A stretch of DNA of 64,000 nt from Cystobacter ferrugineus (GCF_001887355.1 NZ_MPIN01000001.1:1507617-1571616); one strand, 5' to 3'; positions 46,432 to 62,903 are shown, counted from the stretch's first letter. Numbers and translations are program-made. The notes: generated by a model from the letters alone, not told the origin.

Positions 46432-47240
46432 CGGACATGAACGTCCTGGTCGGCACCCACGATCTGCTCTTCCTCACCCTCGACACCCTGCGCCTCGACG
46501 TGGCCGAGGAGACGCTCGCCCAGGGCAGGACGCCCCACCTCGCCGCCCTCCTCCCCGGCGGACGCTGGGAGCGGCGGCACTCGCCCGCCAGCTTCACCTA
46601 CGCCGCCCACCACGCCTTCTTCGCCGGCTTCCTGCCCACCCCCGCCGAGCCCGGCCGCCACTCCCGCCTCTTCGCCGCCCGCTTCCAGGGCAGCGAGACC
46701 ACCGACTCCGGCACCTGCGTCTTCGATGCCCCGGACATCGTCTCCGGGCTCGCCGGGCGCGGCTACCACACCGTCTGCATCGGCGGCGTGGGCTTCTTCA
46801 ACAAGCTCAACCCCCTGGGCAGCGTCCTCCCCAGCCTCTTCGCCGAGAGCCACTGGAGCCCCGAGCTGGGCGTGCGCGACCCCCGCTCCACCGAGCACCA
46901 GGTCCGCCTCGCCGTGCGGCTGCTCGACGCCCTGCCACGCGAGCGCCGGGTGTTCCTCTTCCTCAACGTCTCCGCCCTGCACCAGCCCAATTACTTCTAC
47001 CTGCCGGGCGCCACCGGGGACTCGCGCGACTCGCACGCGGCCGCGCTCGCCTACGTGGACAGCCAACTGCCTCCCCTCTTCGCCGCCCTGCGCCGCCGGG
47101 GGCCCTCCTTCTGCATCGTCTGCTCGGACCACGGCACGGCGTACGGGGACGACGGCTACTCCGGTCACCGGATCGGCCATCCGGTGGTATGGACGGTGCC
47201 CTACGCGGAGTTTCCGCTGCCGGGAGAGCCCGAGTCATGA
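46428..47240 (+). CDS. STM4013/SEN3800-family hydrolase (alkaline-phosphatase superfamily)
   Basis: A 270-aa protein starting at GTG 46428 (or ATG 46437). The metal/nucleophile region is LLFLTLDTLRLDVAEETL, and the C-terminal metal ligands are in CIVCSDHGTAYGDDGYSGH and RIGHPVVWTVPYAEF. This is the sulfatase/phosphopentomutase/alkaline phosphatase fold. It matches the STM4013 family, always found beside the radical SAM families STM4011 and STM4012 in Salmonella and many other genomes; the pathway is unknown. ATGA overlap with the next gene. Confidence 0.85.
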   Translation: MTDMNVLVGTHDLLFLTLDTLRLDVAEETLAQGRTPHLAALLPGGRWERRHSPASFTYAAHHAFFAGFLPTPAEPGRHSRLFAARFQGSETTDSGTCVFDAPDIVSGLAGRGYHTVCIGGVGFFNKLNPLGSVLPSLFAESHWSPELGVRDPRSTEHQVRLAVRLLDALPRERRVFLFLNVSALHQPNYFYLPGATGDSRDSHAAALAYVDSQLPPLFAALRRRGPSFCIVCSDHGTAYGDDGYSGHRIGHPVVWTVPYAEFPLPGEPES

Positions 47241-48553
47241 CGCGCCTGGAGACGATGCTCGGAGGATCGCCCTACGTGGCGTACCTCTATGGCTATCCGC
47301 ACAAGACGGCCTACCGTCCCCTCTCGCCAGCCCCCTCGCTGGAGTCCGTCTGGGCCCGGGAGCGGCGCGAGGCCCTCTTCCTCTACCTGCACATCCCCTT
47401 CTGCGAGATGCGCTGCGGCTTCTGCAACCTCTTCACCGCCGCCGGGCCCAGGGAGGACGTCGTCCAGGGCTACCTCCAGGCCCTCACGCGAGAAGCGCGC
47501 CGGGTGAAGGAGGCGCTCGGGCCCACCACCTTCGCGCGCATCGCCGTGGGCGGAGGCACCCCCACCCTGCTCGACGTGGCCGGGCTGCACACCGTCTTCG
47601 ACCTCGCCGAGCAGGTCATGGGCGCCGACCCCCACCGTCTCCCCGTCTCCGTGGAGGTCTCTCCCGAGACGGTGGACGCCGCCAAGGTGGCCGCCCTGCG
47701 CTCGCGCGGCGTGGACCGGGTGAGCATCGGCGTGCAGAGCTTCCTCGAGTCCGAGGTGGCCTCGGTGAAGCGGCCCCAGAAGACGGCCCAGGTGGAGTCC
47801 ACGCTCGATCTGCTGCGCTCCGCCGGCTTCCCCACGCTCAACATCGATCTCATCTACGGCATGGAGGCCCAGACAGAGGAGACGTGGCTCGCCTCGCTGC
47901 GCGCCGCCCTCCGCTTCGCCCCCGAGGAACTCTACCTCTACCCCCTCTACGTCCGGCCCCTCACCTTCCTCGGCAAGAAGGCCCGGGCCTGGGATGATCA
48001 GCGGCTCGCCCTCTACCGCGCCGGCCGCGACTTCCTGCGCTCCGAGGGCTACACCCAGGTCTCCATGCGCATGTTCCGCGCCCGCCACGCCCCCGCCGTG
48101 GACGGGCCCGTGTACCGCTGCCAGGAGGATGGAATGGTGGGGCTCGGGTGCGGGGCACGCTCGTACACCGAGCGCGTGCACTACTCGTCCGAGTACGCCG
48201 TGGGCTCGCGCGAGGTGCGCTCCATCATCGCCTCCTACAGCGAGCGGACCGAGGCCTCCTTCGGCGAGGTGGGCTACGGCTTCGTCCTCGACGAGGCGGA
48301 GCAGCGCAGGCGCCACATGATCCTGTCCCTGCTCGCCGAGGGTGTGGAGCTCGCCGCCTACCGCCAGCGCTTCGGCACCGAGGCGCTCGCGGACTTCCCG
48401 GAGCTGGCCGAGTTGGAGACCCACGGCCTCGCGCGGCGCACCCCGGAGGCGCTGCGCCTCACGGACGCGGGCGTGGAGCGCTCGGATCTCATCGGCCCGT
48501 GGCTGCACTCCGAGCCGGTGCGCGCGTTGATGGAGGGGTACTCGTGGCGATGA
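47237..48553 (+). CDS. STM4012-family radical SAM protein (HemW-like)
   Basis: A 438-aa radical SAM enzyme. The cluster motif CEMRCGFC has Cys56, Cys60 and Cys63. It is followed by the SAM-binding GGGTPTLLD, the VSVEVSPETVD strand, RVSIGVQSFLESEVASVKRP and NIDLIYGMEAQTEETW. The overall plan is that of HemW/coproporphyrinogen-oxidase-like enzymes, with a C-terminal winged-helix part (about 350-430). The substrate is unknown; HemW relatives transfer haem or modify tetrapyrroles, so an unusual tetrapyrrole or peptide substrate is conceivable. Overlaps both neighbours by 4 bp. Confidence 0.9.
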   Translation: MTRLETMLGGSPYVAYLYGYPHKTAYRPLSPAPSLESVWARERREALFLYLHIPFCEMRCGFCNLFTAAGPREDVVQGYLQALTREARRVKEALGPTTFARIAVGGGTPTLLDVAGLHTVFDLAEQVMGADPHRLPVSVEVSPETVDAAKVAALRSRGVDRVSIGVQSFLESEVASVKRPQKTAQVESTLDLLRSAGFPTLNIDLIYGMEAQTEETWLASLRAALRFAPEELYLYPLYVRPLTFLGKKARAWDDQRLALYRAGRDFLRSEGYTQVSMRMFRARHAPAVDGPVYRCQEDGMVGLGCGARSYTERVHYSSEYAVGSREVRSIIASYSERTEASFGEVGYGFVLDEAEQRRRHMILSLLAEGVELAAYRQRFGTEALADFPELAELETHGLARRTPEALRLTDAGVERSDLIGPWLHSEPVRALMEGYSWR

Positions 48554-49443
48554 AGCTCACCGTGCTCTACCGGGGTCCGCTGTCGAGCTGCAACTTCGGC
48601 TGCGAGTATTGCCCCTTCGGCAAGTGGAAGCAGGACGACGCGGAGCTGGCCGAGGATCGCGCGGGCGTCGAGCGCTTCGTCGGCTGGGTCGAGTCCCGGC
48701 CCTATCCCGTGTCGGTGTTCTTCACCCCGTGGGGCGAGGGCCTCATCCGCCCCTGGTACCAGGAGGCCCTGGTACGCCTCACGCACATGCCCCACGTCGA
48801 GCGGGCCGCCATCCAGACGAACCTCTCCTGCACCCTGGAGTGGGTGGAGCGCTGCCAGCCGGAGAAGCTCGGCATCTGGGCCACCTTCCATCCCGAGTGG
48901 ATGAAGCGGCGGCGCTTCGTGGCGCAGTGCGAGCGGCTGAGCGCCCTGGGCGTGCGCTACAGCGCGGGCATGGTGGGCTTCCGCCGCTTCGCCGAGGAGG
49001 CCGAGGCCCTGCGCCGCGAGCTGCCCGCGGACGTGTACCTGTGGATCAACGCCGTCAAGGACGGCAAGGAGGAGCGCTACACCTCCGAGGACGTGGAGCG
49101 CTTCTCCCGAGTCGATCCGCTCTTCGCCCTCAACAACACCCACCACCCGAGCCTCGGCAAGGCGTGCCGCACCGGGGAGAGTGTCATTTCCGTGGACGGG
49201 GCGGGCTCGGCGCGCCGGTGCCACTTCGTGCGTGAGTTCCTCGGCAACATCTACGAGCCCGGCTTCGAGCAGGTCCTCCGTCCGCGTCCCTGCGCCAAGG
49301 AGACGTGCGGGTGTCACATCGGCTACGTGCACCTGGACTACCTGGAGCTGGAGCGGGTGTTCGGCTCGGGCATTCTCGAGCGCGTGCCAGTGGAGCCCCT
49401 CTGGCGGGCTCAGCGCAGCGCCTCGCGGATCTCCCACTCGTAG
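48550..49443 (+). CDS. STM4011-family radical SAM protein
   Basis: A 297-aa radical SAM enzyme with the cluster motif CNFGCEYC near the N-terminus (Cys14, 18, 21). Cysteines in the C-terminal part (RRCHFVREF; CAKETCGCHIGY) could hold an auxiliary Fe-S cluster, a SPASM-like feature that suggests peptide or protein modification. The ATG at 48550 overlaps the upstream TGA; a GTG at 48544 is possible. Last gene of the plus-strand operon. Its 3' end overlaps by 34 bp the 3' end of the convergent ATP-grasp gene of the same system. Confidence 0.88.
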   Translation: MKLTVLYRGPLSSCNFGCEYCPFGKWKQDDAELAEDRAGVERFVGWVESRPYPVSVFFTPWGEGLIRPWYQEALVRLTHMPHVERAAIQTNLSCTLEWVERCQPEKLGIWATFHPEWMKRRRFVAQCERLSALGVRYSAGMVGFRRFAEEAEALRRELPADVYLWINAVKDGKEERYTSEDVERFSRVDPLFALNNTHHPSLGKACRTGESVISVDGAGSARRCHFVREFLGNIYEPGFEQVLRPRPCAKETCGCHIGYVHLDYLELERVFGSGILERVPVEPLWRAQRSASRISHS

Positions 49444-50534
49444 ACGGAGAGCCCGTCGCGCCGCAGGTTGGGCAGCAGATCTCCGAAGGCGTTGGCCTCC
49501 AGGACGTAATGGTTCTGGAAGTGCGCCTCGTACATGAGATCGATGCCCACGTGCAGGCAGTCATGGGACCGCGCCACCTGGCGGCACGTCTCCATCGCCG
49601 CCTCCAGCTCGCGCGGAGGCACCGCCTCGAGGAAGGCCTTCATGTCGCCGCGCTTGCCCCCCAGGTGCAGGTTGGTGATGGGGTGGCGGCTCTGACGGAT
49701 GACGGTGAAGGCCGGCTCGCCCCGCACCATCAGCACCCGGCAGTCGAAGAAGTCCCCGCGCAGCCTCGCCTTGGGCAGGGCCCGCTCCACTTGCGAGCCC
49801 TCGCGCAGGAGGAACTCCAGGGCCGCCTCCACCCGCCCAGGCTCCCGCAGGCGGCGCACATTGAGCGAGTTGTACCAGCCGGTGTCCGTCTGCTCGAGGG
49901 TGGTGAACAGGGACTCGTCCGAGCGGCCCAGCCGGAAGATGCCCAGGCACGACGCCGAGGAGCCACACGAGAGCTTCACGAACGCCTCGCGCCAGCCCTC
50001 CTCCCGCATCCGCGTCCGCAGCGACTCCACGTCCGTGATGCCCTCCAGCGACGGCGGCACCGGAATGCCCCGCGCCGCGTACTTCCGCGAGGTAATGCGC
50101 TTGTCGAAAAGCTCCGCGATGCTGGCGGGTGAGGAGAGCACCCGCCAGCGGGGGTGCTCGGCGAAGATGGCCTCCAACTGGCGCAGCGTCCGCAGGAAGC
50201 CCAGGTGGTACTGCCTCGGGCAGAGGATGCGCCCGTGGTCCTCCGGGAGGGCGTCGATCTGCTCGGGCGTGAGCACGGCGCACCCGAGCGCCCGCGCTTC
50301 CTCGTGGCCCCGCTTCAGCAGCGCCTTCTCCACCTCGAAGCTCTCGCCCGCGGCGTCGATGCGCACGAGCCGCTCGGTGTCCGGCAGGTCCCCGAGCGCG
50401 GCCGGGTCTCGCAGCAGCTCCCGCCAGGGCACCACGTGCGCGGGAGGAAGGCCCTGGGAGGCCAGGGCCGCCTGGAAGAGCGTGACGCGCCGGTTCTCCG
50501 GATTGCCGATGAGCAGGAAAGGCGGCGCGCCCAC
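49410..50534 (-). CDS. STM4014-like ATP-grasp ligase family protein
   Basis: A 374-aa protein of ATP-grasp type: a central domain with FDKRITSRKYAARGIPVPPS (the ATP-lid start), EAFVKLSCGSSASCLGIF, and the Mg-binding end CLHVGIDLMYEAHFQNHYVL then EANAFGDLLPNL (Glu and Asn ligands). ATP-grasp enzymes join a carboxylate to an amine or thiol through an acyl-phosphate, often making peptide bonds or modifying RiPPs. Gene order beside STM4011-4013 families identifies it as the STM4014 type. It is downstream of the WGR-LRR gene (12 bp) and convergent with the radical SAM operon. Confidence 0.85.
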   Translation of the reverse strand: MGAPPFLLIGNPENRRVTLFQAALASQGLPPAHVVPWRELLRDPAALGDLPDTERLVRIDAAGESFEVEKALLKRGHEEARALGCAVLTPEQIDALPEDHGRILCPRQYHLGFLRTLRQLEAIFAEHPRWRVLSSPASIAELFDKRITSRKYAARGIPVPPSLEGITDVESLRTRMREEGWREAFVKLSCGSSASCLGIFRLGRSDESLFTTLEQTDTGWYNSLNVRRLREPGRVEAALEFLLREGSQVERALPKARLRGDFFDCRVLMVRGEPAFTVIRQSRHPITNLHLGGKRGDMKAFLEAVPPRELEAAMETCRQVARSHDCLHVGIDLMYEAHFQNHYVLEANAFGDLLPNLRRDGLSVYEWEIREALR

Positions 50535-50546
50535 CCGGAACTCCCG

Positions 50547-51911
50547 CTACTCGCCCACCGCCACGTAGCGGTAGTCGTCGTCCTCGTCGTAGTCGTCACG
50601 CTGGTTGCCGTGAGCCACGTGCTCGCCCAGCTTCGCCACCTGCTTCTGGGCCTCGTCCGACAAGAGGTTCTCCGTCACGTCCAGGCGCTTGAGGTGCTTG
50701 AAGGCCGCCGCGTTCGCCACCAGCGCCTCCGCGCCCTCCTTCGTCATCGTGCCCATGGACAGATCCAGCGTCTCGAGCTGGGGGAGGATCTTCGCCCGCG
50801 GCAGCGCCTTGCACAGCTCGTTGGTGAACTCCGCGTTGCGCAGCCCCAGGTGCTTGAGCGCCGGCACGCCCTTGCCGTCGAGCAGGGGCTGGATGTCGTC
50901 CACGCCGCCTCCCGCGCCGTAGTTCTCCGAGCCGAACCACACCTCCAGCCGCTCCAGCTTCGGCCAGTTCGCCTTCACGATGGACTTGACCGCATCCAGC
51001 GGCAACCCACCCGTCTCCACGGTGAACTCACGCAGCTCCGGCAGGTTCACCTCGCCCAGCTCCAGCTCGCCTCCGCGCACCTTCAACGAGCGCAGGCGGG
51101 GGAACGCCTTGTACACCGGCGAGATGTCTTGCAGGTGCGTCCAGGAGATCTCCGTCTCGTCCGGATACTCGAAGTCGCCGATGAAGAGCGTCTCCAGCGT
51201 GGGGCACGTCGTCCCCGCCAGCGCCTCGATGGCCTCGCTGTAGTCGTTCTCCTCGTAATCCGCCATGCCGAAGGTGAGCTCGCGCAGGAAGCGGGCCGAG
51301 GGCAGCGCCATCAGGTGCTTCACCGCCTCGGCGGAATCGAACTCCGAGTCGAAGTCTCCCCGGGCCAGGCGGGCGCTCTGGATGAAGCCGAAGCGCCACC
51401 CCACTTCCACCTCGTTGTCCTCCTTGTCCGCCAGCGCCCCCAGCAGGTACTTCTTGTACTTGCGCACCAGCGCCGACGCCTGACGCTTGAGCTTCGTGGC
51501 CTCCTCGCCCGACGCCTGATGCGCCGCGCACTGCAGGGCGATCAGCTCGCCGCGAGGGTCTCCCTGGCTCTGCAGCCAGTCGCCATAGACGAGGTAGCCC
51601 TCCACGTTGTCCGGGTCCTTCTCGATGGCCGCCTCGAGCTCCGGATTGCGTTTGGCCAGGTTCGCCGAGTCACCGCCGTCCTCGTCCTCCTCGGGCGCCT
51701 CCTGGCCCTCGGCCAGCTCGTAGCCCTTCTTCGTCTTCTCGGCGACGAGCTTGTCGTACTCGCGCTTGGCCTCGATAGGGTTGGAGAAGTTCTGCGTCTT
51801 CTCCTGGCCCTTCGTGCCGATCTTCCCCCAGCGCGTGGTGAAGCTGTTTCCCGAGAGGGTGATCTCCCAGAACTTGCTGGAGCTGCCCTCCTTGAACTCG
51901 TAAAGCGGCAT
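50547..51911 (-). CDS. WGR domain plus leucine-rich repeats, STM4015-like
   Basis: A 454-aa protein. Residues 1-75 are a WGR domain (WEITLSGNSFTTRWGKIGTK), found in PARPs and some bacterial stand-alone proteins. Residues about 95-140 match the TIGR02996 segment (NPELEAAIEKDPDNVEGYLV, YGDWLQSQGDPRGELIALQ). Residues about 200-430 are leucine-rich repeats (LRSLKVRGGELELGEVNLPE; PALKHLGLRNAEFTNELC; QLETLDLSMGTMTKEGAEAL). The tail is acidic and ends DDYRYVAVGE, similar to my memory of STM4015-family tails. It may be a scaffold or the protein substrate of the radical SAM/ATP-grasp set. It starts 24 bp after the vWA gene of the upstream operon, with AAGGGG before the ATG. Confidence 0.82.
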   Translation of the reverse strand: MPLYEFKEGSSSKFWEITLSGNSFTTRWGKIGTKGQEKTQNFSNPIEAKREYDKLVAEKTKKGYELAEGQEAPEEDEDGGDSANLAKRNPELEAAIEKDPDNVEGYLVYGDWLQSQGDPRGELIALQCAAHQASGEEATKLKRQASALVRKYKKYLLGALADKEDNEVEVGWRFGFIQSARLARGDFDSEFDSAEAVKHLMALPSARFLRELTFGMADYEENDYSEAIEALAGTTCPTLETLFIGDFEYPDETEISWTHLQDISPVYKAFPRLRSLKVRGGELELGEVNLPELREFTVETGGLPLDAVKSIVKANWPKLERLEVWFGSENYGAGGGVDDIQPLLDGKGVPALKHLGLRNAEFTNELCKALPRAKILPQLETLDLSMGTMTKEGAEALVANAAAFKHLKRLDVTENLLSDEAQKQVAKLGEHVAHGNQRDDYDEDDDYRYVAVGE

Positions 51912-51935: not shown

Positions 51936-53357
51936 CTAGAGGAGCCCCCGCGCAAGCTCAAGCGTTGCTCCACGCCATGTGGCCCACAGCTCCTCGCCGG
52001 GTGGCTCGGAGGACGAGGAGGGCAAGAGCCGAGGCACCGGCTGGGAGACATCGAGCAGCGACAGGCCCACCTGGGAGGGAGCGGGAGGCACCTCCTGGCC
52101 CCCCAGGAGGAGCACGTCCGCGCGGGCCCGCTTCGCGTCCTCCGCGGCCTGGGCGAGGACCGTCTCCACGCGGTCCGCCACCGTTACCTCGGCGTTACCT
52201 CGCGCGAGCCACTCGCGCAGCAGCAGCTCGCACAGGCCCCGTTCCGCCTCCAGCCCCTCCCCCACCACCACCACCCGGAAGCGCAGCTCCTCCTCCCCCA
52301 GCCACACGGACAGCCGCCGCACCAGGCTCAACACCAGCCCCAGCACCAGCACCCCCCGCTGCCAGCGCAACCCCGCGTCCTTGACGCGTGCCTCCGTCAG
52401 CCCCGGCAGCAGCGCGAACGTCACCCGCCGCCGCCGCCGCACGACGAGGCTCTCGTCCCGCGTGTAGTAGAGCAGCTCGCCCTCCACATAGCGCAGGTCG
52501 AACAAGTCCAGCCCCGCGTCGTCCTCCATGTAGACGAGCTCCGAGGTGACCAGGTTCTCCAGACTCCCCACGTTGGACACCGAGGAGAAGCCGCCCTGGG
52601 GAAACGCCGCGTCATCCTCCAGGTGCGAGGGCGTCTGGCCCGAGGCGGGCTTCCGCGGACGCATCCGCTTGGGCAGGGCCTCGGCGAGCGCCTCCGCCGC
52701 CTCCACCGCCTGCTCCAGCGCCAGCCGCCGCGCCCGGCCCTGGAGCCGCTCCAGGTTCTCCAGGGTGAACACCTCCGCGTCACCCAACAGCACCCGCGCC
52801 CTCCGGGCCGCGCCGCCCAGGGACTCGTAGGACTCGACCAGCCGCTCCACCTCCGCGCCCCGCTCGCGCAGCGCCGCGTGGCCCGTCTGGAGCAGCTCGG
52901 CGGGAGGATGTTCGAGCACCCGCCGCGCGAGCCCGGGATTCACCGCCGCGCCCCCCGTGAACCCGAGCCGCGTGAGCACCCGGGCCACCAGGAAGGCCAC
53001 GCCGCGAGGACGGAGCTCCACCGGCATGCGGGCCAGCGCGTTCACCACCGCCTCCAGCCGCGGCTCGGCGGCCAGCCGCGCGAGCAGGTGGTCCTCATAG
53101 GCACGCACCGCGGCACGCAGGGAGGGCACGGTGTCCGGCACCGGCCGCGAGGACTCGAGCGGCGCGCCCAGGGCCAGCCGCCCGAGGTCCACCACCACGC
53201 CCAGCGGAGGCAGCGCCGGAAGCTCGGCGTGGGTCGCCAGCAGCCAGGGCACGGCTTCCGCCATGGCCTCGGGGGAGGTGCCCCCCAGCCTCGCGAGGCA
53301 CAGCCCCGCGCACAGCCACCGCTCCGCTTCCCCGGGTCCAAGCGGCTCCGTCGTCAT
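51936..53357 (-). CDS. vWA-like protein of the FtsH/MoxR ternary system (degenerate MIDAS)
   Basis: A 473-aa protein. The N-terminal half is helical (LLATHAELPALPPLGVVVDL; LARMPVELRPRGVAFLVARV). The C-terminal part (about 310-470) has the strand/helix order of a von Willebrand A domain: RRVTFALLPGLTEARVKDAG, LRFRVVVVGEGLEAE, ARADVLLLGGQEV. The metal-binding DxSxS is not seen; the corresponding loop is LLPGLTE, so it is probably inactive for metal. ATGA overlap with the MoxR gene, last gene of the eight-gene operon. MoxR-vWA pairs act as chaperone-like modules that remodel partners. Confidence 0.72.
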   Translation of the reverse strand: MTTEPLGPGEAERWLCAGLCLARLGGTSPEAMAEAVPWLLATHAELPALPPLGVVVDLGRLALGAPLESSRPVPDTVPSLRAAVRAYEDHLLARLAAEPRLEAVVNALARMPVELRPRGVAFLVARVLTRLGFTGGAAVNPGLARRVLEHPPAELLQTGHAALRERGAEVERLVESYESLGGAARRARVLLGDAEVFTLENLERLQGRARRLALEQAVEAAEALAEALPKRMRPRKPASGQTPSHLEDDAAFPQGGFSSVSNVGSLENLVTSELVYMEDDAGLDLFDLRYVEGELLYYTRDESLVVRRRRRVTFALLPGLTEARVKDAGLRWQRGVLVLGLVLSLVRRLSVWLGEEELRFRVVVVGEGLEAERGLCELLLREWLARGNAEVTVADRVETVLAQAAEDAKRARADVLLLGGQEVPPAPSQVGLSLLDVSQPVPRLLPSSSSEPPGEELWATWRGATLELARGLL

Positions 53358-54409
53358 GTCAGCCCGAGCAGCCGAGGCACCTTCTCCTCCAGCAGATCGA
53401 TCTCCTCGCGCGTCTCTCCCAGGAAGGAGAGCAGCACCAGATCCTCCCGCTCGACGGCGCCTCCATGGAAGATCCACGCCCGCGTGCGCAACAGCCGGTA
53501 GAGTTTCACCAGCTTGCGATCGCTGATGAAGACGCCGTCCTCGCGGGTGAGCGTCTGCACCACGCGGCGGAACTCGCGCAGCAGCTCGTCGCGGAAGAAC
53601 AGCTCCCGGTCGCGCAGCTCTCGCCCCTCCGGCCCCGGCTCGCGCCGGCTCATCACCAGCGTCAGGTAGCGGTGGGCCTTGAGGAAGTCCTCCAGCGTGG
53701 CGTGGCCCTCCGCCCAGGGCTTCTGGTTCAGCTCGCGCTGCGTCTGCGACTCCAGGCCCGCGTCGATGAGCTCGAGGAAGTAGCGGTCCTGCACCGGGCG
53801 GCAGGCCGCCTTCAGGCAGAAGCGATCCTTGAGCGCCCCCAGCTCCGCGTGCTCGGGCAGCTCGTTGGTGGCGGCGAAGAGCACCTTGAGCCGCACTGGT
53901 TGGGGCGCGCCGTCCTGGTAGAACTTGCGCTCGTTGATGACCGTGAGCAGCGCGTTGAGGATGGCCGAGCTGGCCTTGAACACCTCGTCCAGGAAGACGA
54001 GCCGCGCCGTGGGCAGCTTGCCCCGCTCGCGCCGCATGTAGCGGCCCTGCCGCAAGAGGTTGATGTCGATGGGGCCCAGCACCTCCGAGGGCTCGGTGAA
54101 GCGCGTGAGCAGATACTCGAAGTAGTCCTCGTCCCCGATGCGCAGGGCGTCCTTGAACTTGAGCACCAGCTCGGACTTGGCCGTGCCCGGCGGACCCACC
54201 AGCAGCAGCGGCTCCTGCGCCACCGCCGCCACCGTCATCAGGTCCACCAACGTCTGCTTCCCCACGAAGTGCCGCCCCAGCGAGAGCCGGAAGCGGTTGA
54301 TGCGCTCGCGCAGCGCCTGGGACTCGCGCGAGAGCGCCTCGTGGGACAGCTCGGTGATGGGGTCGACGGCGCTCCGGCCGTCCGCGGGCTCCCGAGTGGG
54401 AACGCTCAT
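53354..54409 (-). CDS. MoxR-family AAA+ ATPase
   Basis: A 351-aa ATPase of the MoxR/RavA group. Walker A is VGPPGTAKSELVLKF, the sensor/insert region is LTRFTEPSEVLGPIDINLL, Walker B is RLVFLDEVFKASSAILNALL, and sensor 1 is LFAATNELPEHAEL followed by the arginine-finger region KDRFCLKAACRPV. MoxR ATPases work with vWA proteins, and one is encoded immediately downstream (ATGA overlap). It also overlaps the 1080-aa protein gene upstream. No membrane segments. Confidence 0.92.
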   Translation of the reverse strand: MSVPTREPADGRSAVDPITELSHEALSRESQALRERINRFRLSLGRHFVGKQTLVDLMTVAAVAQEPLLLVGPPGTAKSELVLKFKDALRIGDEDYFEYLLTRFTEPSEVLGPIDINLLRQGRYMRRERGKLPTARLVFLDEVFKASSAILNALLTVINERKFYQDGAPQPVRLKVLFAATNELPEHAELGALKDRFCLKAACRPVQDRYFLELIDAGLESQTQRELNQKPWAEGHATLEDFLKAHRYLTLVMSRREPGPEGRELRDRELFFRDELLREFRRVVQTLTREDGVFISDRKLVKLYRLLRTRAWIFHGGAVEREDLVLLSFLGETREEIDLLEEKVPRLLGLT

Positions 54410-57400
54410 GGATGCTCCTCCAGCTCCCGGTGGATGCGGCGCCGCACCAGGAATTCGTCCTCGTCCAACCACCGCCGGGTGCGCTCACCCGACCCCTGCC
54501 CCACCCCCACGTGCCCCAGCACCAGCGCGTCCGCGAACTCCACCACGGACAGGCAGAAGTGGCTGTTGGTGTTGTAGCTGTCCGTCACCCAGGGGAGCTG
54601 CTCGGACAGCCGCGCCAGCGCTGGCAGGGCCACGTCGACCGGGGCCTGGGACAGCGCCCCCGCGAGCCCCCGCGCCAGGGTGAGCCGCTCGGGCATGGGC
54701 CCCTGGAACTGGGCCAGGGTGGTGAAGGCGCGCTCGAACACGGCGCTGGCCTCTGGCAGGTGTCCGAGCAGCGCGAGCCCGGCGGCGATGCCGAGCTGGG
54801 TGGACAGGGGCACCTTCTCCGGGCGGGCGAGGAGCTGCTGACCCGGCTCGAGCAGCCCGGTGGCCTCGCGGGTCAGCCCCAGACGGCGCAGGTCGCGCAG
54901 GCACGCGCCGAGGATGCCGTGCCCCCAGGCCGCCGCCGCGGGAGGAAGCCCCACCAGCAGGGCGCGCAGCCGTCCCACCAGCGCCTTGACGTGATCCTCC
55001 CGGCCGAAGTGTCCCGCCACCGTGAGGGCATCCCCCAGGAGCAGGGCATGGGCCTCGTCGGGCAGGCCCTCCATGGACGGCACGAGCCGGGCCAGCAGCG
55101 GCAGGGCGCGGGCCGGGGGCAGTCGAGGAAGGGTGTCGAGCAGACCTTCCAACAGCCGCTGGCGCTCGGGGGCCGGCGTGAGGAGGGAGAGCGCCCGGGC
55201 GGCGAGCTGTTCCACGGCGGTGGCCAGCCGCGCCACGTCCTTCTCCTCGCGCAGGAGGGCGAACTCCTCGCCGCGTGGATCCCGCTCGCCCCGTCCGAAG
55301 GAGCGCGCCGGATCCAACCGCTCGCTCGGCTCGAGAATCGTGGAGGCCTGCCGGAGCCGGTCCACCTTGTACCGGAGGAAGGTGCCCAGGGACTGGAGCT
55401 CGGTGGCCAGCTCATGGGGAAGCGGTGTCTCGGAGGGCAGTCCCTCGAGGGCCTGCGCCACCCGCGCCGCATAGGCCCGGCCGAGGAAGCCATGCACGGG
55501 GTCCTTCCCTTCCAGGCCGGAAGTGGCGCTCGCCGTCAGCTCCCGCGCCCGGTCCGCGTGCCCGAGCCGCGCGAGTCCCCAGGCGAAGACGAAGCGCACA
55601 TAGGACCAGGTGAGGGCAACGGGGGCCTCGAGAGCGGAGCGGTGGCGGGGCGTGCGCTCGAAGCGCTCGAGCAGCGCGTCGAGCTGGGCACGCAGCCGGG
55701 AGGCATGGGTCGCATCCACGCTCGCGCGCAGGAAGGTGGGCACGTCTCGCGCCCGGGAAAGGCCCCGGTGCAGCAGGGCGAGTATCCGATCTCCAGCCTG
55801 GGCCAGCCCGAGCGCATCGCCCCCGGCGAGCCGGGCCAGCGCGGCACGGGTGAGCCAGAGCGAGCGCACGTCGAGCGCGCCTTCGTGCCGATCCAGCCAG
55901 CGATGCACCGCGGGAACATCGAGCGGTTCGCCGGAGCCATGGAACACCCGCAGCACGTGACTCGCGAGGGCGCGGACGTCCGCGTCGGAGGGCGCGGCGA
56001 GGGCCAGCCGCTCGGCGGGCGAGGCCCCTGGCGACGTGGACTCCGCCCAGCGGGCCGCGAGGGACGCCGCCTCGGCGCCCGAGGTCTCCCAGAGGGCCCG
56101 GCTCCAGCACAGGCTCGCGTCGCGCTCGCGCCCGAGCAGGCTGTTGAGCTCCGCCATGCGCACCCACGAGGGCAGGCGCTCGGGCGCGTCCGCCGGGGAC
56201 TCCAGCGCGAGGAAGCCCTTCTCCCGCGAGGTCAGCTCCTGCTCGGCCTCGCTCGTCCGCGCGGGCGTGAGGGGCACCAGGCGCATGGGCGGAGGCCGTG
56301 GCGCCTCCTCCCGGGGAATCCGTGGCGCGGCGATGGGCTCGGGGGCGGGCGCGGTGGAGGTACGGCGGCGGGAGGAGCGACGTTCGGGCTCCTCCTCCTT
56401 CACCGACGGCGGGGGCCCTTCACGCGGCCCGGTGTCCGAGGCCTCGAAAGCCGCGAAGTCGAACGTGGCGCCACGCACCCAGGGCTCGAGCGCCACGGCC
56501 CCGGTATCGAGGACATACTCCACCCACTCGTCGAGCGGCTGGAAGGCGCGCTCCGGGAGGCGCTCGGCGCGGAAGGCCCCCTGCCCCGTGGGGTGCAACC
56601 AGGTGACGGTGTCCGCGTCGGGCGTGAGCAGGGCGCGCAGCCGGTCCCCTCGCAGGGGCGGCTCCAGCAGCGCGTCACAGGGCAGGTAGAGGGTGGGAAG
56701 CTGGGGCAAGGGAGCGTAGGCCGTCGCGGACAGTCCGAGTTCCGGAGGCTTCTCCCGCCCCGGCCGGGCGCGGAGGACGACGTGGGGCGCCTCGGGAGGG
56801 CCCGAGACGGCGAAGCGCAGCTGCGCGAGCAGCGCCTCCGGCAGCGAGTGGACGAGGGACTCGACCTGAGCCACGGCGTTCTCGCGCAACACCCAGAGGC
56901 TGGCGGGCTCCACGCGCGCGGCCTGGTGGAGCCGCAGGGGCACCGAGAGGCGTCCGGGCATGGGGCGAGGCACCCAGTCCTCCGCGGGCCGGGGCAGCGA
57001 GAGGTCCACGAGCTGGTACAGGTCCAGCCAGGGCCCGTCTGGCGCGGACATCCAGCGCCCCTCCCCCGGAAGCAGCAACAGCGTCCCCGGGGGCGCCTGG
57101 AGCCCACGGGCCAATGGGTGGGTATGGCCCAGCTCCATCCACACCCCATGCAACCCGGCGGTGACGGGAGCGAAGGCGCGCAGTCCCGCGATGCGGTCGA
57201 TGGCGCGCGTGAGGGTGAAGTACGGCGGAGCCACGGCTCGCAGGAGCGCCCGGCGCTCGGAGCCACTCCCAGCAAGGCACAGCTCCTGTCGATCACACCC
57301 GAGCCGCAGCAGCTCTCCAGCCAGGGGCAGCAGCTCGCGCTCGTGCGCGGCCAGGAAGAGCACCGGACCGGTGGGCACGTCCAGCTCGGGCATCCGCCGG

Positions 57401-57648
57401 ACCGGAAGCAGCTCCGCCCAGCAGCTCACGGCCGCACCGTCCCCGGAGGCTTCCTCATCGAGGCGGATGCCAAGCTCCCCGAGCGCCTTCACCTGGGCGC
57501 GAGCCAGGGGCGCCTCGGGCGTGACGAGGAGTCCTCCCGCCCCGGTGCGCTGGACGCGCGCCCGAGCCACCTGCACCTCGGCGGGAACGAGGCCCGAGGT
57601 CAGCGCGAGCCGCAGGACTTCCTCTGTGGGGAAGACGAGCGTGGGCAT
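54406..57648 (-). CDS. 1080-aa protein of the FtsH/MoxR ternary system, unknown function
   Basis: A large soluble protein without membrane segments. The N-terminal ~400 residues are mixed alpha/beta (GPVLFLAAHERELLPLAGEL; PQLPTLYLPCDALLEPPLRG). A charged, Pro/Arg-rich linker at about 410-480 (EEEPERRSSRRRTSTAPAPE) precedes a helical-repeat C-terminal half of about 600 residues with TPR-like periodicity (LGLAQAGDRILALLHRGL; AAGLALLGHLPEASAVFERA). It corresponds by size and place to one of the uncharacterised 'X' components of FtsH-vWA-MoxR systems. Overlaps of 4 bp with the MoxR gene downstream, and one base shared with the small peptide gene's stop upstream. Confidence 0.7.
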   Translation of the reverse strand: MPTLVFPTEEVLRLALTSGLVPAEVQVARARVQRTGAGGLLVTPEAPLARAQVKALGELGIRLDEEASGDGAAVSCWAELLPVRRMPELDVPTGPVLFLAAHERELLPLAGELLRLGCDRQELCLAGSGSERRALLRAVAPPYFTLTRAIDRIAGLRAFAPVTAGLHGVWMELGHTHPLARGLQAPPGTLLLLPGEGRWMSAPDGPWLDLYQLVDLSLPRPAEDWVPRPMPGRLSVPLRLHQAARVEPASLWVLRENAVAQVESLVHSLPEALLAQLRFAVSGPPEAPHVVLRARPGREKPPELGLSATAYAPLPQLPTLYLPCDALLEPPLRGDRLRALLTPDADTVTWLHPTGQGAFRAERLPERAFQPLDEWVEYVLDTGAVALEPWVRGATFDFAAFEASDTGPREGPPPSVKEEEPERRSSRRRTSTAPAPEPIAAPRIPREEAPRPPPMRLVPLTPARTSEAEQELTSREKGFLALESPADAPERLPSWVRMAELNSLLGRERDASLCWSRALWETSGAEAASLAARWAESTSPGASPAERLALAAPSDADVRALASHVLRVFHGSGEPLDVPAVHRWLDRHEGALDVRSLWLTRAALARLAGGDALGLAQAGDRILALLHRGLSRARDVPTFLRASVDATHASRLRAQLDALLERFERTPRHRSALEAPVALTWSYVRFVFAWGLARLGHADRARELTASATSGLEGKDPVHGFLGRAYAARVAQALEGLPSETPLPHELATELQSLGTFLRYKVDRLRQASTILEPSERLDPARSFGRGERDPRGEEFALLREEKDVARLATAVEQLAARALSLLTPAPERQRLLEGLLDTLPRLPPARALPLLARLVPSMEGLPDEAHALLLGDALTVAGHFGREDHVKALVGRLRALLVGLPPAAAAWGHGILGACLRDLRRLGLTREATGLLEPGQQLLARPEKVPLSTQLGIAAGLALLGHLPEASAVFERAFTTLAQFQGPMPERLTLARGLAGALSQAPVDVALPALARLSEQLPWVTDSYNTNSHFCLSVVEFADALVLGHVGVGQGSGERTRRWLDEDEFLVRRRIHRELEEHP

Positions 57649-57917
57649 CAGGCCTTCCGCGCGACGCGTCCGGAGACGTCCTCGGACGCCGGGGTCTGCT
57701 CACCGCTCGGGCTGCTCGCGGGCGTCTCGCGCTCGACGAGGATGCGCCCCACCTCGGAGGCCTTCAGCGCGCCGCCCGCGATGAGCTTGTCCACCAGGCG
57801 GCGATGCTCCTCCTCGTGCTCCATGGGCAGGGCATCGGCATCGCTCTCGTACTTGACGAGGATGTCCTTCTTGCCCGTGGTGGGATCGATCTGCAGGCGG
57901 AGGGTGAGGCTAGCCAC
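57648..57917 (-). CDS. Small FtsH-system-associated protein, 89 aa
   Basis: Starts at GTG 57917, overlapping the protease gene by 8 bp, and ends with an ATGA overlap. It reads SLTLRLQIDPTTGKKDILVK in a beta-type N-terminus, then a helix EHEEEHRRLVDKLIAGGALK and a disordered Ser/Pro tail. Such a small conserved protein directly after the FtsH gene is a hallmark of these ternary systems; it may be an adaptor or a regulated substrate of the protease. Confidence 0.75.
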   Translation of the reverse strand: MASLTLRLQIDPTTGKKDILVKYESDADALPMEHEEEHRRLVDKLIAGGALKASEVGRILVERETPASSPSGEQTPASEDVSGRVARKA

Positions 57918-60027
57918 GGCTGGACTCCTTGGGCGCCGCGGAGGGCACCAGGTGGGCGAAGGCCTCGCGGTCGAGCACCTTGCGTTCGAGCAGCAGGTCG
58001 CGCAGCGCGAGGAGCAGGCCCCGCTCGCGCTGGAGGATGTCCCGGGCCCGCTGCCGCTGGGACTCGAGCAGGTGCCGCACCTGGGCATCCAACTGCTCGA
58101 GCGTGGCATTGGAGAGCGGGAGCGAGGGCGCTCGTGCGTCATGCGGGGCGAAGCGTTGCACCGCGAGCGTGGCATCCCCGCCCATGCCGAACTCCTGCAC
58201 GAGCGCGCGGGCGATCTCCGTGGCCTGCTCCAGGTCCTGCGCGCTGCCGATGGAGACATCCTCCAGCAGGAGCGCCTCGGCCTCGCGGCCGCCGAAGAGC
58301 ATGCAGAGGTTGTCGAGGAGCTGGCCCCGGGTGACCACATAGCGGTGGGCCCGGTCCGCGTACTGCACGAAGCCGAGCGAGCCCGCGAGGTCTCCCCGGA
58401 TGGAGATGCGATCGATGGGCGGCGCGTGGGGACAGTGCAGCGCGCAGAGGGCATGGCCGGCCTCGTGGGTGGCCACCACCTTCTCCTCGGCGGCGGTGAG
58501 CTCGGGCCGATCGAGGTACTCGGTGAGGGCCTGCTCCACGTCGATGGGCTCGGTGGGGCCCGGGTTCCCCTCGCGCAGCCGCCGCCGCGCCAGTGCGCGG
58601 CACAGCGCCTGGAGGTGATCGCCGGAGTAGCGCGAGCCGGTGCCCTCCACCAGATCCCCCGTGCGCTTCACCGCGTACTCCAGGGCGCGCTCGGACAAAC
58701 CCAGGCCGAGCTTGCGGTCATAGATGGAGAGGATGGCGCGCCGGTCCGTGCTGTTGGGATAGGGAATGCAGAGCTGGAACTCGAAGCGGCCGGGACGCAG
58801 GAGCGCGGGATCCAACGACTCGACGAAGTTGGTGGTGCCCACCACGAAGACGAGCTCCTCCTTGCGGAAGCCGTCCATCTCCGTGAGGAGCTGGTTCACC
58901 ATCGAGTGCTCCACCCCCGAGCCCGTGTACGTGCCGCGCGCCGAGGCGAAGGAATCCAGCTCGTCGAAGACGATGATGCTGGGGGCGGCCTGGCGGGCGC
59001 GCACGAAGATCTGCCGGAGGTTCTCCTCGCTCTCGCCCACCCAGCGGCTCTTGAGCTCGGGACCGCTCACCACGGTGACGGCCGCGCCGAGCGCCGAGGC
59101 CATCGCCTTGGCGAAGAGCGTCTTGCCCGTGCCAGGAGGGCCCCAGAAGATCATCCCGCGCGGCAGGAGCGACTCCACCTGCTTGACCTGCTCGGCGTCC
59201 CCGAGCGTGTCCTTGTGGGCCAGCACGTCCAGCAGCTCGCGCTGGAGCCGCTCCTTCACCTTCACGTAGCCGCCGATGTCCCGGTGCAGATCCAGGTCCG
59301 GCACGCTGAGCGAACCGGACAGGGTGGCGTTGCGCAACTGCGCATACGCGGGGCGAGCGTCCGCGGGGTAGTCCTCACCGGTGATGGCCCCGAGCAGGCG
59401 CCGCAGACGGACGGCATTCACGCCGGACACGTGCTTGTAGAGCGCGTAGGGCTGGAGTCCCCGGCCGAACTTCCGGCTCTCGCGCTGGGTGACGAGGTAG
59501 CGCAGCCGCTCGCGGCTCACGCCCAGGATGCTCTCGCGGTGGGGGAAGAGGTTCTCGATGACGCGCGGCAATGGGAAGGAGGGATCCTTGAAGCCCACCC
59601 ACACCATCTCCGGGTTCTCGTAGAGCAGGGGGATGACCTCGCGCGCCTCGGTGGTGAGCCCTCCGCTGCTGGTGGTGAGCAGATCCAGGTGGGGCAGCAC
59701 CACGATGCGCTCGCGCACGGCGCCGCGCACGGCCTCGCGCAACTGGGCGATGAGCGTGGACATGAGGCTCGGCGCCGGCATGCCCGGAGGAGGCTCCTGG
59801 GCGGCGCGGCCATCCAGGTAGAGGAACTGCTTGCCCTCGCGTTTGAGCCGATCGCGCAGGCACTTGTAGAAGAAGGGCGTCAGCTCCTTGTCGGCCTCGA
59901 CCATGACGGGGAGGCCCCGCTGCAGCGCCTCGCACACGCGGCCCAGCTCGGTGGGATAGGCCGCCTCCACCGCCGCGAAGGGGGTCAGCTCGACGGGCAG
60001 CTCCTGCTCGGGGAGGCGGGCACTCAC
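57910..60027 (-). CDS. FtsH-like AAA+ zinc metalloprotease without membrane anchor
   Basis: A 705-aa protein. Residues 1-270 form a degenerate AAA-like region (VMVEADKELTPFFYKCLRDR; RERIVVLPHLDLLTTSSGGL). The AAA+ domain (about 280-490) has Walker A FWGPPGTGKTLFAKAM, Walker B SIIVFDELDSFASA and the second region of homology LDPALLRPGRFE. The peptidase domain has the zinc motif HEAGH at His521-His525 and the third ligand region VSIGSAQDLEQATEIAR. Unlike house-keeping FtsH there are no N-terminal TM helices, so it acts in the cytosol. It is the core enzyme of the operon and presumably unfolds and degrades targets selected by the other components. Confidence 0.9.
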   Translation of the reverse strand: MSARLPEQELPVELTPFAAVEAAYPTELGRVCEALQRGLPVMVEADKELTPFFYKCLRDRLKREGKQFLYLDGRAAQEPPPGMPAPSLMSTLIAQLREAVRGAVRERIVVLPHLDLLTTSSGGLTTEAREVIPLLYENPEMVWVGFKDPSFPLPRVIENLFPHRESILGVSRERLRYLVTQRESRKFGRGLQPYALYKHVSGVNAVRLRRLLGAITGEDYPADARPAYAQLRNATLSGSLSVPDLDLHRDIGGYVKVKERLQRELLDVLAHKDTLGDAEQVKQVESLLPRGMIFWGPPGTGKTLFAKAMASALGAAVTVVSGPELKSRWVGESEENLRQIFVRARQAAPSIIVFDELDSFASARGTYTGSGVEHSMVNQLLTEMDGFRKEELVFVVGTTNFVESLDPALLRPGRFEFQLCIPYPNSTDRRAILSIYDRKLGLGLSERALEYAVKRTGDLVEGTGSRYSGDHLQALCRALARRRLREGNPGPTEPIDVEQALTEYLDRPELTAAEEKVVATHEAGHALCALHCPHAPPIDRISIRGDLAGSLGFVQYADRAHRYVVTRGQLLDNLCMLFGGREAEALLLEDVSIGSAQDLEQATEIARALVQEFGMGGDATLAVQRFAPHDARAPSLPLSNATLEQLDAQVRHLLESQRQRARDILQRERGLLLALRDLLLERKVLDREAFAHLVPSAAPKESSRG

Positions 60028-60590
60028 AGGCGGACCTTGATGGTGAGCGAGCCCGTGGCGGGATCCTCGCTGATCTCCTCCACCGTGCCGAGCTGCCGCG
60101 CCCGGACCTTGAGGGCCTCGCCCGTCACCTTGTTGGTGACCGCGTCCAGTTCCTGCTTCAGGTCGCGCAACCGGGACTCCAGGCGGCGGGTGATGTCCTC
60201 ACGCAGGACCTCCCTGGCGATGGTGGCCCGGTCCTCCAGCCGCGCACGGGCCTGTTCCCGGGCCTGATCCTGGGCCTGCTCCTTCTCATCCTCCCGGGCG
60301 TAGCCGCGCTGCGCCGTGGCCTGGAGCTCCACGGCCCGCTCGTCGGCGAGCGTGACGCTCACGTCTCCCGTCTGCACGTCGATGGCCAGCCGGACACCAT
60401 CGGCCTCGGTGCGCAGGGCGACGGGGCCCTCGCGCGTGAACCCCCGGCGCGCCAGCTCCTCGGCGAGCAGTCCCCCCAGCTCCTCCTGGGAAAGGATGGG
60501 CAACAACTCGAGCTTGGAGCAGACACCATCCTCGGCCTGCACCACGCGGTTGAGGGACTCGGAGACGGAGATGCGGTAGGCGCGGCTCAT
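60024..60590 (-). CDS. Helical protein of the FtsH/MoxR ternary system, 188 aa
   Basis: A beta-rich N-terminus (MSRAYRISVSESLNRVVQAE; LELLPILSQEELGGLLAEEL) and a long charged coiled-coil-like centre (EDEKEQAQDQAREQARARLE), then a C-terminal beta-hairpin (DPATGSLTIKVRL). The arrangement, a small fold flanking a coiled coil, suggests an adaptor. It overlaps the FtsH start by 4 bp and follows the previous gene by 12 bp. Family not recognised outside the ternary-system context. Confidence 0.72.
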   Translation of the reverse strand: MSRAYRISVSESLNRVVQAEDGVCSKLELLPILSQEELGGLLAEELARRGFTREGPVALRTEADGVRLAIDVQTGDVSVTLADERAVELQATAQRGYAREDEKEQAQDQAREQARARLEDRATIAREVLREDITRRLESRLRDLKQELDAVTNKVTGEALKVRARQLGTVEEISEDPATGSLTIKVRL

Positions 60591-60602
60591 GGAGAACGCA
60601 GG

Positions 60603-61652
60603 CTAGCTGGAAACGGCTTCGAAGGGACCGAGGGAAGAGAGGGCGCGCTCCCGCTCCGCCGCGAGCCGGAAGCCGGCCTCGCCGAACGCGCTCCACTGGG
60701 AGAGCAGGAACTGGGCCGCGTCATAGTCATCGTCGAAGAAGCGCACGGCCCGGTGCTCGGAGTCCCAGCGGGCGAGACGGGCGAGACTCCGAAGCCAGGC
60801 GCCCGCGGCCCGGGAGGCCTCGGCGCGGGCACGCAACGAGGCGAGCGGGGAGAGTCCTTCCACCCAGAGCGTGGCGGGGCGTCCCACCAGTCCCCTGCCC
60901 GCCTCCAGCAGGAAGCCGGCGAGATCCCTCCGCCGGGCGGCCTCGAGCGCCTCCAGGAAGGCGGAGAGCACCGCCTCCTGCGCCGAGCCGAGTGCCACCA
61001 TGTCTGCGGGCTCGGAGACACGGCGCTTGGACTCCTCGATGCGCAGCCAGCGCCGCGCGAGGTCCGCCTGCAAGGCCTCGAGCACGAGGCCCTTGTCCAC
61101 GAGCAGCGGGGTGAAGGCCGAGGCGTTGAAGCCGGGCGGAGGCGCGCCGAGCAGCTCGGGAAAGCCGAGCCGGCAGAGAGCGGAGTGCCGGAAGAGGGGC
61201 TGGGCGCCCACGGACGGCCCACAAGGCGTGCCCGCCACGAGGTGACAGCAGAGGTAGAGGAAAAGCTCGTCGGCGAGCGTCAGAGGCTCCACCACCTCGA
61301 GCGGCTCGCGGTCGAGCCGTCCGAGGGGTTGGGAGGTGAGCCACTGGAGGGTCCGCACGCAGGCGGACGAGAAGTGCAGCGGAGGGGCGGCGTGCCGTTG
61401 CCAGAGCCGGCCTTCCACACCTTGTCCATCGTGGAGGTGACGCTGCCGCCGCCAGCCCCCGCGCCGGACGAGGGCCAGGACGACGCCCTTGGCGAGCAGG
61501 TCGCGCAGTACGTGGAGCGCGCGGGGGCCGAGCTTCGGGGGAACCTCGCGGCGGGTGAGGAGGAGGTCCTCGACGGAGGCGTACTGCCCCGAGTCCACGA
61601 TGGCGCGGGCGAGGGAGAGGAGGGCGTGCTCGCTGGGGGAGACGGACATCAT
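60603..61652 (-). CDS. Unknown protein of the FtsH/MoxR ternary system, 349 aa
   Basis: Starts MMSVSPSEHALLSLARAIVD with an ATGA overlap to the radical SAM gene. Mostly helical: a winged-helix-like first part (LGPRALHVLRDLLAKGVVLA), then ADELFLYLCCHLVAGTPCG, a central DKGLVLEALQADLARRWLRI and a C-terminal RFFDDDYDAAQFLLSQWSAF. No catalytic motif is seen. By position it matches another 'X' component of these systems. Confidence 0.7.
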   Translation of the reverse strand: MMSVSPSEHALLSLARAIVDSGQYASVEDLLLTRREVPPKLGPRALHVLRDLLAKGVVLALVRRGGWRRQRHLHDGQGVEGRLWQRHAAPPLHFSSACVRTLQWLTSQPLGRLDREPLEVVEPLTLADELFLYLCCHLVAGTPCGPSVGAQPLFRHSALCRLGFPELLGAPPPGFNASAFTPLLVDKGLVLEALQADLARRWLRIEESKRRVSEPADMVALGSAQEAVLSAFLEALEAARRRDLAGFLLEAGRGLVGRPATLWVEGLSPLASLRARAEASRAAGAWLRSLARLARWDSEHRAVRFFDDDYDAAQFLLSQWSAFGEAGFRLAAERERALSSLGPFEAVSS

Positions 61653-62251
61653 GGCCGCAACCGGTTGGCGAGCTCGGGCCAGCCGTTGATGACGAGCTTG
61701 CCGTCCACGAAGTGGATTTCGGCGGTGTTGGGAGCGGAGAACCGAGGGTCTTCCGGAGAGTAGCGAGGAGTGAGGAAGTGCAGGACCTGGTTGCGCGAGC
61801 CAATCCAACGGCGGCGCGTGTCCGGCTGGTCCTTCTCGTAGCGGCCGTCGACGAGCAGGTCGGCGGTGGCGAGGAGCCGGTCCACCTCCGGATTCGCCTG
61901 GGCGCGCAGCTCGGCGAGGGTGTAGCCGCTGAAGATCATGATGGAAAGACCGGCCCCGCGGAGGCGCTCGCACAGGGCGGCGGCGGGGCCGGGCTGGGCG
62001 AAGGGCTCTCCCCCGAGGAGGCTGAAGCCCTCGATGTCCGGGGTGGAGAGGACGCGCCGGGCGAGCTCCTCGACGGTGACGAGAGGGCCGCGATCGGGGG
62101 CGAACATCTCCGGGTTGCAGCACCCCGGGCAGCGCAGCGGGCAGCCCTGGAGCCAGAGGGCGAAGCGGTGACCGGGACCCTCCGCCTCGGTACGGGGGAC
62201 GAACTGGGCCACCCGGAGGGCGGGCTCTGAAGGCTGCGGGACTTCGCTCAT
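61649..62251 (-). CDS. Radical SAM activase-like protein of the ternary system (NrdG-like)
   Basis: A 200-aa small radical SAM protein. The cluster motif is GCPLRCPGCCNPE (Cys37, 41, 44), followed by FSLLGGEPFAQPGPAAALCE and the strand LSIMIFSGYTLAEL. Size and motifs match the NrdG/pyruvate-formate-lyase-activase subgroup, but no glycyl-radical enzyme is nearby. It is the first gene of the eight-gene operon. GGGGGAG precedes ATG 62251 (an ATG at 62266 is an alternative), and its stop overlaps the next start. It may install a radical or modify a component of the FtsH-MoxR machine. Confidence 0.85.
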   Translation of the reverse strand: MSEVPQPSEPALRVAQFVPRTEAEGPGHRFALWLQGCPLRCPGCCNPEMFAPDRGPLVTVEELARRVLSTPDIEGFSLLGGEPFAQPGPAAALCERLRGAGLSIMIFSGYTLAELRAQANPEVDRLLATADLLVDGRYEKDQPDTRRRWIGSRNQVLHFLTPRYSPEDPRFSAPNTAEIHFVDGKLVINGWPELANRLRP

Positions 62252-62297: not shown

Positions 62298-62903
62298 TCA
62301 CTCGGACCAGAGGAGCGGCAGCTCGAACTCGATGGCCTCGAACGGCTCGGCCCTCACCCGCTCTTCTCCCGCGAAGGTCTGAGCGAGCACCCACTGGCCC
62401 TCCGTCAGCCGGTAGATGTCCAGCGTGCGGGCCAGCGGCTCCACCAGCCACAGGTGCCTCACGCCTTCCCGAACGTAGATGCGCATCTTCGGGCCCTTGT
62501 CCCGGCTGCGCGTGCGGTCAGAAAGAATCTCGCAGGCCCAGTCCGGCGCCAGGCCGTAGTGCGCCGGCGCATCGTCTCCACCGACGGCACGCGGCAGACG
62601 CTCGCGCGTCCACCCAGCCACGTCCGGCACGAGCTTGTCCGGGCGTGGACCGAGGTGCAGCTCCGGCTCGGAGAGGATGACCCATCCCCCCGGCCCGCCC
62701 CTGCCGAACTTGAAGGGCCCTCCGATGAGGATGCCCAGGTTCGACGCCACGTTGGCATGAGGGCGGGCCGGACGCGGGCTGAGGTACAGCACCCCATCCA
62801 GGATCTCCGCCACCATCTCCTCGGGAGCGGCCTGGAAGGCCGCCTCCACGGACGGGTCGTTGGGCTCGGTGGACTCGGACTCGGGAGGGCGACGAGTGAC
62901 CAT
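62298..62903 (-). CDS. Uma2/DUF820-family predicted endonuclease
   Basis: A 201-aa protein of the PD-(D/E)XK fold known as Uma2 (DUF820): YLSPRPARPHANVASNLGIL, SEPELHLGPRPDKLVPDVAG (the active-site Pro-Asp), PDWACEILSDRTRSRDKGPK (the E-x-K pair) and VRHLWLVEPLARTLDIYRLT. These proteins are numerous in myxobacteria and cyanobacteria; the biological target is unknown. It lies 47 bp upstream of the ternary operon on the same strand but is probably separate. A truncated second copy lies at 63658. Confidence 0.85.
   Translation of the reverse strand: MVTRRPPESESTEPNDPSVEAAFQAAPEEMVAEILDGVLYLSPRPARPHANVASNLGILIGGPFKFGRGGPGGWVILSEPELHLGPRPDKLVPDVAGWTRERLPRAVGGDDAPAHYGLAPDWACEILSDRTRSRDKGPKMRIYVREGVRHLWLVEPLARTLDIYRLTEGQWVLAQTFAGEERVRAEPFEAIEFELPLLWSE

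Follow-up and report, generated by a model that had tools for sequence, protein, structure and literature searches.

A simple-type FtsH ternary operon of Cystobacter ferrugineus adjoins the STM4011–4015 cassette and may form a composite unit with it

The 64-kb stretch of DNA analysed here (the window) comes from the 12.05-Mb genome of Cystobacter ferrugineus, whose closest relatives are Myxococcaceae, and carries at 51936–62251, all on the minus strand, an operon of eight genes assigned to an FtsH ternary system: a radical SAM enzyme, X6, X5, a soluble FtsH-like protease, X3-analog, X7, a MoxR ATPase and ivWA, a degenerate vWA protein (Table 1). Adjacent genes share 1 to 8 nt, and the sole gap, 12 bp at 60591–60602, lies between X6 and X5. 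A reading of the sequence alone (the sequence-only reading) had recognised the same eight genes, coordinates, overlaps and single gap; its left boundary, 51936, is too short, as two further genes lie on the same strand at 50547–51911 and 49410–50534. Specifically, ivWA is followed after 24 bp by an STM4015-like gene and then after 12 bp by an STM4014 gene, the probable ninth and tenth genes of the operon, and the STM4013, STM4012 and STM4011 genes are convergent with these two. We propose, with moderate confidence, that the ternary system and the STM4011–4015 cassette constitute a composite 13-gene unit, a cytosolic remodelling and proteolysis machine that would serve a conserved cellular task and not phage defence.

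Table 1. Genes of the FtsH ternary operon and of the adjoining STM4011–4015 cassette, in window coordinates
Gene product	Coordinates	Strand	Length and start	Profile matches
Radical SAM enzyme, NrdG/PFL-activase-like	61649..62251	-	200 aa	Fer4_12 4.9e-32, Radical_SAM 1.6e-7 (Pfam)
X6 (fvmX6)	60603..61649	-	348 aa	PF20004 5.1e-74
X5 (fvmX5)	60024..60590	-	188 aa	PF20003 1e-47
Soluble FtsH-like protease	57910..60027	-	705 aa, GTG start	AAA 7.3e-40, Peptidase_M41 5.5e-37
X3-analog (fvmX3-analog)	57648..57917	-	89 aa, GTG start	PF20002 4.8e-30
X7 (fvmX7)	54406..57648	-	1080 aa	PF20005 2.3e-75
MoxR AAA+ ATPase, RavA-like	53354..54409	-	351 aa	PF20030 bpMoxR 2.1e-60
ivWA, degenerate vWA + N-terminal helical domain	51936..53357	-	473 aa	PF19997 1.6e-32, PF19996 7.5e-17
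STM4015-like protein (WGR, TIGR02996, LRR)	50547..51911	-	454 aa	NF038076 4.8e-75, WGR 9.3e-20
STM4014 family ATP-grasp-like protein	49410..50534	-		NF038074 392 bits, cut-off 175
STM4011 family radical SAM protein, convergent	48550..49443	+		NF038073 395 bits, cut-off 200
STM4012 family HemN/HemW-like radical SAM protein	47243..48553	+		NF006067 616 bits, cut-off 380
STM4013 family hydrolase, alkaline-phosphatase-superfamily-like	46428..47240	+		NF038075 434 bits, cut-off 250

The main text of Kaur, Burroughs, Iyer and Aravind (2020, PMC7159879) distinguishes two types of FtsH ternary system, of which the simple one has a fusion of a helical domain with a divergent vWA, a standalone radical SAM enzyme, a small peptide gene and GXXXTAKS in MoxR, with deltaproteobacterial and planctomycete hosts. 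By its domain content, the operon is of this simple type: it has the TAKS P-loop, the helical and divergent vWA domains, an active second AAA domain, the radical SAM enzyme with a small gene, and X5, X6 and X7. The identification as an FtsH-vWA-MoxR ternary system, which the sequence-only reading had also made, is correct and not new, since all curated marker domains score far over their Pfam cut-offs. The X proteins, whose failure to match the X-domain families was part of what that reading said would refute it, match fvmX6 (249.8 bits, cut-off 27), fvmX5 (162.8, cut-off 24.2), fvmX3-analog (104, cut-off 27) and fvmX7 (254.6, cut-off 24), and the remaining markers are bpMoxR (203.8, cut-off 27), PF19997 (113, cut-off 35) and PF19996 (62, cut-off 27). 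The radical SAM-X6-X5-FtsH-X3-analog-X7-MoxR-ivWA order recurs in other Myxococcota and, as far as X7 or MoxR, in Planctomycetota; the most stable core across loci is X5-FtsH-X3-analog. Because each protein widely exceeds the Pfam cut-offs and the gene order recurs elsewhere, the eight genes are not chance open reading frames.

What is new is the recurrent joining to STM4011–4015 in unrelated bacteria, together with an inheritance like that of a cell function; the ternary machine itself has been described. The tight linkage to the cassette goes unmentioned in the main text of Kaur et al., as does the term M41, the peptidase domain conserved here, and we found no description of the composite as a variant in the literature searched, which for that paper comprises the main text. 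The literature searched offers no mechanism beyond the prediction of Kaur et al., as the sequence-only reading had supposed, and no experiment on a simple-type system was found. According to the same main text, a subset of simple-type systems has a NEFF1 effector; that name is absent among the Pfam matches of the operon, and Pfam may have no NEFF1 model. No effector module was recognised in the operon.

Like canonical FtsH, the M41 membrane protease, the FtsH-like protein combines an AAA domain with an M41 domain that retains all catalytic residues. In particular, H521, E522, H525 and D598 of the zinc site are invariant in 51/51 aligned relatives, as are the Walker A, Walker B and second-region-of-homology residues of the AAA domain, and the first three belong to the HEAGH motif that had been noted before. 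Unlike canonical FtsH, it has ~250 additional N-terminal residues, reaches 267 bits where the curated score is 600, and lacks a membrane anchor, again as noted before, the highest 19-residue hydropathy mean being 1.5 and falling within the AAA domain; by hydropathy, no operon protein has a membrane helix. Residues 1–245 have no P-loop and share a conserved VVLPHLDLL. Kaur et al. describe this N-terminal region, in their main text, as an inactive AAA domain; an hhalign comparison with the protein's own AAA domain found nothing past the shared 18-residue overlap, which neither confirms nor refutes its AAA nature. Two planctomycete X5 genes (L097 and L104) have no FtsH-like neighbour, and in L097 an STM4015-like gene stands directly after X5.

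The second motor of the operon is the MoxR protein, whose P-loop, GPPGTAKS at residues 72–79, is invariant in 28 relatives and whose closest solved relative is RavA (PDB, 6e-39, residues 32–345). Its partner ivWA, with a helical domain and a vWA domain, recalls the RavA-ViaA pair. The two differ from that pair in the score against the RavA equivalog (151.5 bits, cut-off 681), in the presence here of a protease, a radical SAM enzyme and X proteins, and in the loss of the aspartate of the metal-ion-dependent adhesion site (MIDAS), where ivWA has LLPGL and a distant relative (L094) has DASLS; the vWA domain is thus degenerate, as had been claimed. The radical SAM enzyme has a single cluster motif, CPLRCPGC, with cysteines invariant in 41 relatives, and most resembles NrdG and pyruvate-formate-lyase activases, its best NCBIfam match being NrdG (TIGR02491, 7.3e-26, under the cut-off).

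An AlphaFold2 model of X5 (mean predicted local distance difference test, pLDDT, 89.9) comprises a beta domain, one 68-residue helix (100–167) and a C-terminal hairpin. Compared with the PDB, this model gave nothing above noise, the highest Z being 8.7 across 111 residues, and Foldseek gave no match at E 0.001 or better; the fold may nonetheless be a known one. The X5 of one planctomycete locus (L119:10001–10570) has a weak, sub-cut-off match (E 0.008) to fvmX2, which belongs to the complex FtsH ternary type, a match that suggests that X5 and X2 may be related. X7 has its fvmX7 domain at 1–381, the long remainder being without Pfam match; in a model of residues 1–420 (pLDDT 85.1) just a ferredoxin-like sub-region was matched (Z 7.0); here too a known fold may apply. 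Profiles of X5 and X7 found nothing convincing among PDB sequences. X3-analog consists of a conserved folded N-terminal part of ~60 residues and a variable disordered tail (49 relatives aligned). All 49 have HExxH, and the tail frequently ends in KG or KA; a role as a zinc protease was not accepted, because the protein bearing the motif is 89 aa long and a third ligand was not recognised.

Gene content varies around this set. Five loci of other Myxococcaceae carry a conserved 85-aa protein between X3-analog and X7, in three of them with an FHA-domain protein next after it (Pfam-tested in one, L089). Six Gemmataceae loci have two tandem X7 genes, and profile searches of the locus DNA examined for them turned up no ivWA. 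For X6, an alternative ATG at 61652 would add one residue.

X5 is present in 49 of 96 genomes of the family, as one copy in 48 of the 49 carriers, and its carriage runs by genus: 27/27 in one, 0/16 in another and 3/4 in the window's own. Between two Myxococcus species the flanks are collinear, at the same chromosomal place. Comparison with the two nearest relatives gives a ratio of nonsynonymous to synonymous substitution (dN/dS) of 0.05–0.48, mostly 0.15–0.25 and never >1, indicating purifying selection in all genes, and X5 was not found in phage, plasmid or viral-contig collections. Taken together, single copy, fixation or absence by genus, collinear flanks, purifying selection and the lack of copies in those collections suggest a conserved but dispensable cell function. 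The distribution does not look like that of a defence system, for which patchy, mobile spread would be expected and was not seen; it leaves room for a domesticated or fixed immune role.

These observations bear on the prediction by Kaur et al. of a role in conflict or phage defence, which the sequence-only reading had taken up. In that view the constant MoxR-vWA-FtsH core would be held off until infection and would then curb spread through a multicellular population, by releasing a radical-SAM-modified peptide effector, X3-analog, or by degrading an essential factor. The published family prediction and the statistical enrichment in multicellular bacteria, both reported in their main text, speak for it, and so do the small protein beside a radical SAM enzyme and the sensor-like variation of the LRR genes at the Myxococcus locus, which number 1 to 4 in tandem. 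This function is the least secure element of the sequence-only reading. The near-universal single copy, the all-or-none carriage by genus, the missing mobile copies and the uniform purifying selection run counter to it; PADLOC found no system match in the operon, generic AAA similarity only, there is no effector module, and the folded part of X3-analog is strongly conserved, unlike a variable toxin. On balance, a conflict role appears rather unlikely.

The cassette beside the operon contains all five genes of the Salmonella-named NCBIfam STM4011–STM4015 set. Four of its members pass curated cut-offs, and the STM4015-like protein reaches 252 bits against the NF038076 cut-off of 275; the STM4013 protein also matches Sulfatase and Phosphodiest, weakly. 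The cassette differs from the NCBIfam set in the extra WGR and TIGR02996 domains of STM4015 and in being joined to AAA+ genes. An STM4015-like gene adjoins the ternary system in the window's genus and in Myxococcus, where it follows ivWA as 1 to 4 tandem copies of the WGR/LRR type and where, in genomes whose contigs permit comparison, the cassette lies within ~16–30 kb of X5. Among genomes without the ternary system, a single STM4015-like match was found in nearly all genomes of the Corallococcus-like genus g6 and in four of genus g7.

Outside the family, the cassette stands beside the ternary system at four loci in four different arrangements. Specifically, in a gammaproteobacterial metagenome-assembled genome (MAG; L128) ivWA is followed after 9 nt by STM4013-STM4012; in a planctomycete MAG (L119) the cassette is divergent from radical SAM-X6-X5; in one Myxococcota locus (L247) STM4013-4012-4011 runs with a 4-nt overlap into radical SAM-X6-X5-FtsH-X3-analog-X7; and in another (L251) ivWA is followed after 2 nt by STM4014-STM4015-STM4013-STM4012. 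The latter two are continuous tight operons. Four such loci among ~69 examined compare with a rough expectation of ~0.1, which assumes random placement within 15 kb each side and ignores clustering, indicating linkage well beyond chance. Furthermore, the cassette occurs in 9/11 carrier genera of the family versus 2/15 others (p = 7.7e-4) and in 11/32 carrier genomes outside the family versus 10/382 Planctomycetota without X5, the latter sets being differently drawn and both comparisons uncorrected for phylogeny.

Alternatively, the two could be functionally separate neighbours, the ternary system merely lying beside the cassette. All five cassette genes occur without the ternary system in all 16 genomes of g6 and in many Planctomycetota, and in several carriers (e.g. 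G096 and G091) the cassette lies far from the ternary genes, as this explanation would have it. The adjacency at another four loci of differing arrangement, of which two are continuous tight operons, and the genus-level co-occurrence argue against it, and we regard it as unlikely.

Descent from, or functional analogy to, the Ycf46-Ycf35(DUF1257)-DUF2997 triad, with the FtsH-like protein as Ycf46, X5 as DUF1257 and X3-analog as DUF2997, is very improbable, because the shared three-gene outline (in the Planctomycetota cluster, a P-loop-less N-terminal module plus AAA, with ~130-aa and ~70-aa proteins) comes without detectable sequence homology, which hhalign led us to reject at ~1% probability or less (X5/DUF1257 1.1%, X3-analog/DUF2997 0.3%, N-terminal modules 0.3%). 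A DUF1257 search of the window's own genome gave nothing above the cut-off. In Planctomycetota (L143–L155) the Ycf46-like AAA, DUF1257 and DUF2997 genes lie together as a conserved cluster of three.

For the composite unit, the intact ATPase and zinc-protease sites and the absence of anchors suggest a cytosolic two-motor machine for remodelling and proteolysis. The FtsH-like protein would be a hexamer, with a dead N-terminal module, a live AAA ring and an M41 chamber, that degrades or trims a target. Adaptors or entry tags of this protease may be X5, which has the long helix, and X3-analog, which has the disordered tail, because both flank its gene in nearly every locus. MoxR and ivWA would be a chaperone pair of the RavA-ViaA kind, opening or assembling the complex on an X7 scaffold. 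The NrdG-like enzyme would modify a component or a client, most likely X3-analog or X6. The cassette, whose products include two further radical SAM enzymes together with ATP-grasp, hydrolase and LRR proteins, could make or recognise the modified client. As a tentative scheme, the radical SAM and ATP-grasp enzymes would modify a client that the soluble chaperone-protease remodels or degrades, so that one system couples radical-chemistry maturation with quality control, for example of a radical- or metal-modified protein, and does not act in phage defence.

Several points weigh against the composite unit and its cellular task. The profile comparison could not show the N-terminal region of the FtsH-like protein to be AAA, and the co-occurrence tests lack phylogenetic correction. 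The cassette is frequently alone, and in many carriers it is missing or located at another place in the genome, so the link to the ternary system is optional. The function is also dispensable, being rare across phyla and lost from whole genera, and most carriers belong to lineages that are multicellular or have a complex lifestyle, which Kaur et al., in their main text, take as the argument for conflict.

FtsH ternary systems have so far been a computational prediction of conflict systems, and the STM4011–4015 link joins two unexplained gene sets. Single-copy, genus-fixed inheritance puts the default phage-defence reading in question. If true, the composite unit would give the unstudied STM4011–4015 genes, found in Salmonella too, their first functional context. 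Since Myxococcus xanthus, a tractable organism, carries both the ternary genes and the cassette, with carriage seen in strain AM003, both sets can be tested there.

Gene calling used a codon model; a simple gene finder based on third-position GC content (GC3) was misled by long antisense open frames, among them one of 1951 aa antisense to the operon at 54412–60267 (+), which arises from codon bias in GC-rich DNA. A scan for sigma-70 promoters and terminators gave nothing above shuffled sequences. At 62298–62903, on the same strand as the radical SAM gene and 46 bp upstream of it, is a gene resembling Uma2-type endonucleases (PADLOC candidate PDC-S03); it was rejected as a member of the system, standing beside the radical SAM gene only in the window's genus and not in the Myxococcus loci examined. 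One record titled 'Comamonas sp. KCTC 72670' (L071) is probably mislabelled, its locus and genome being of the Myxococcus type.

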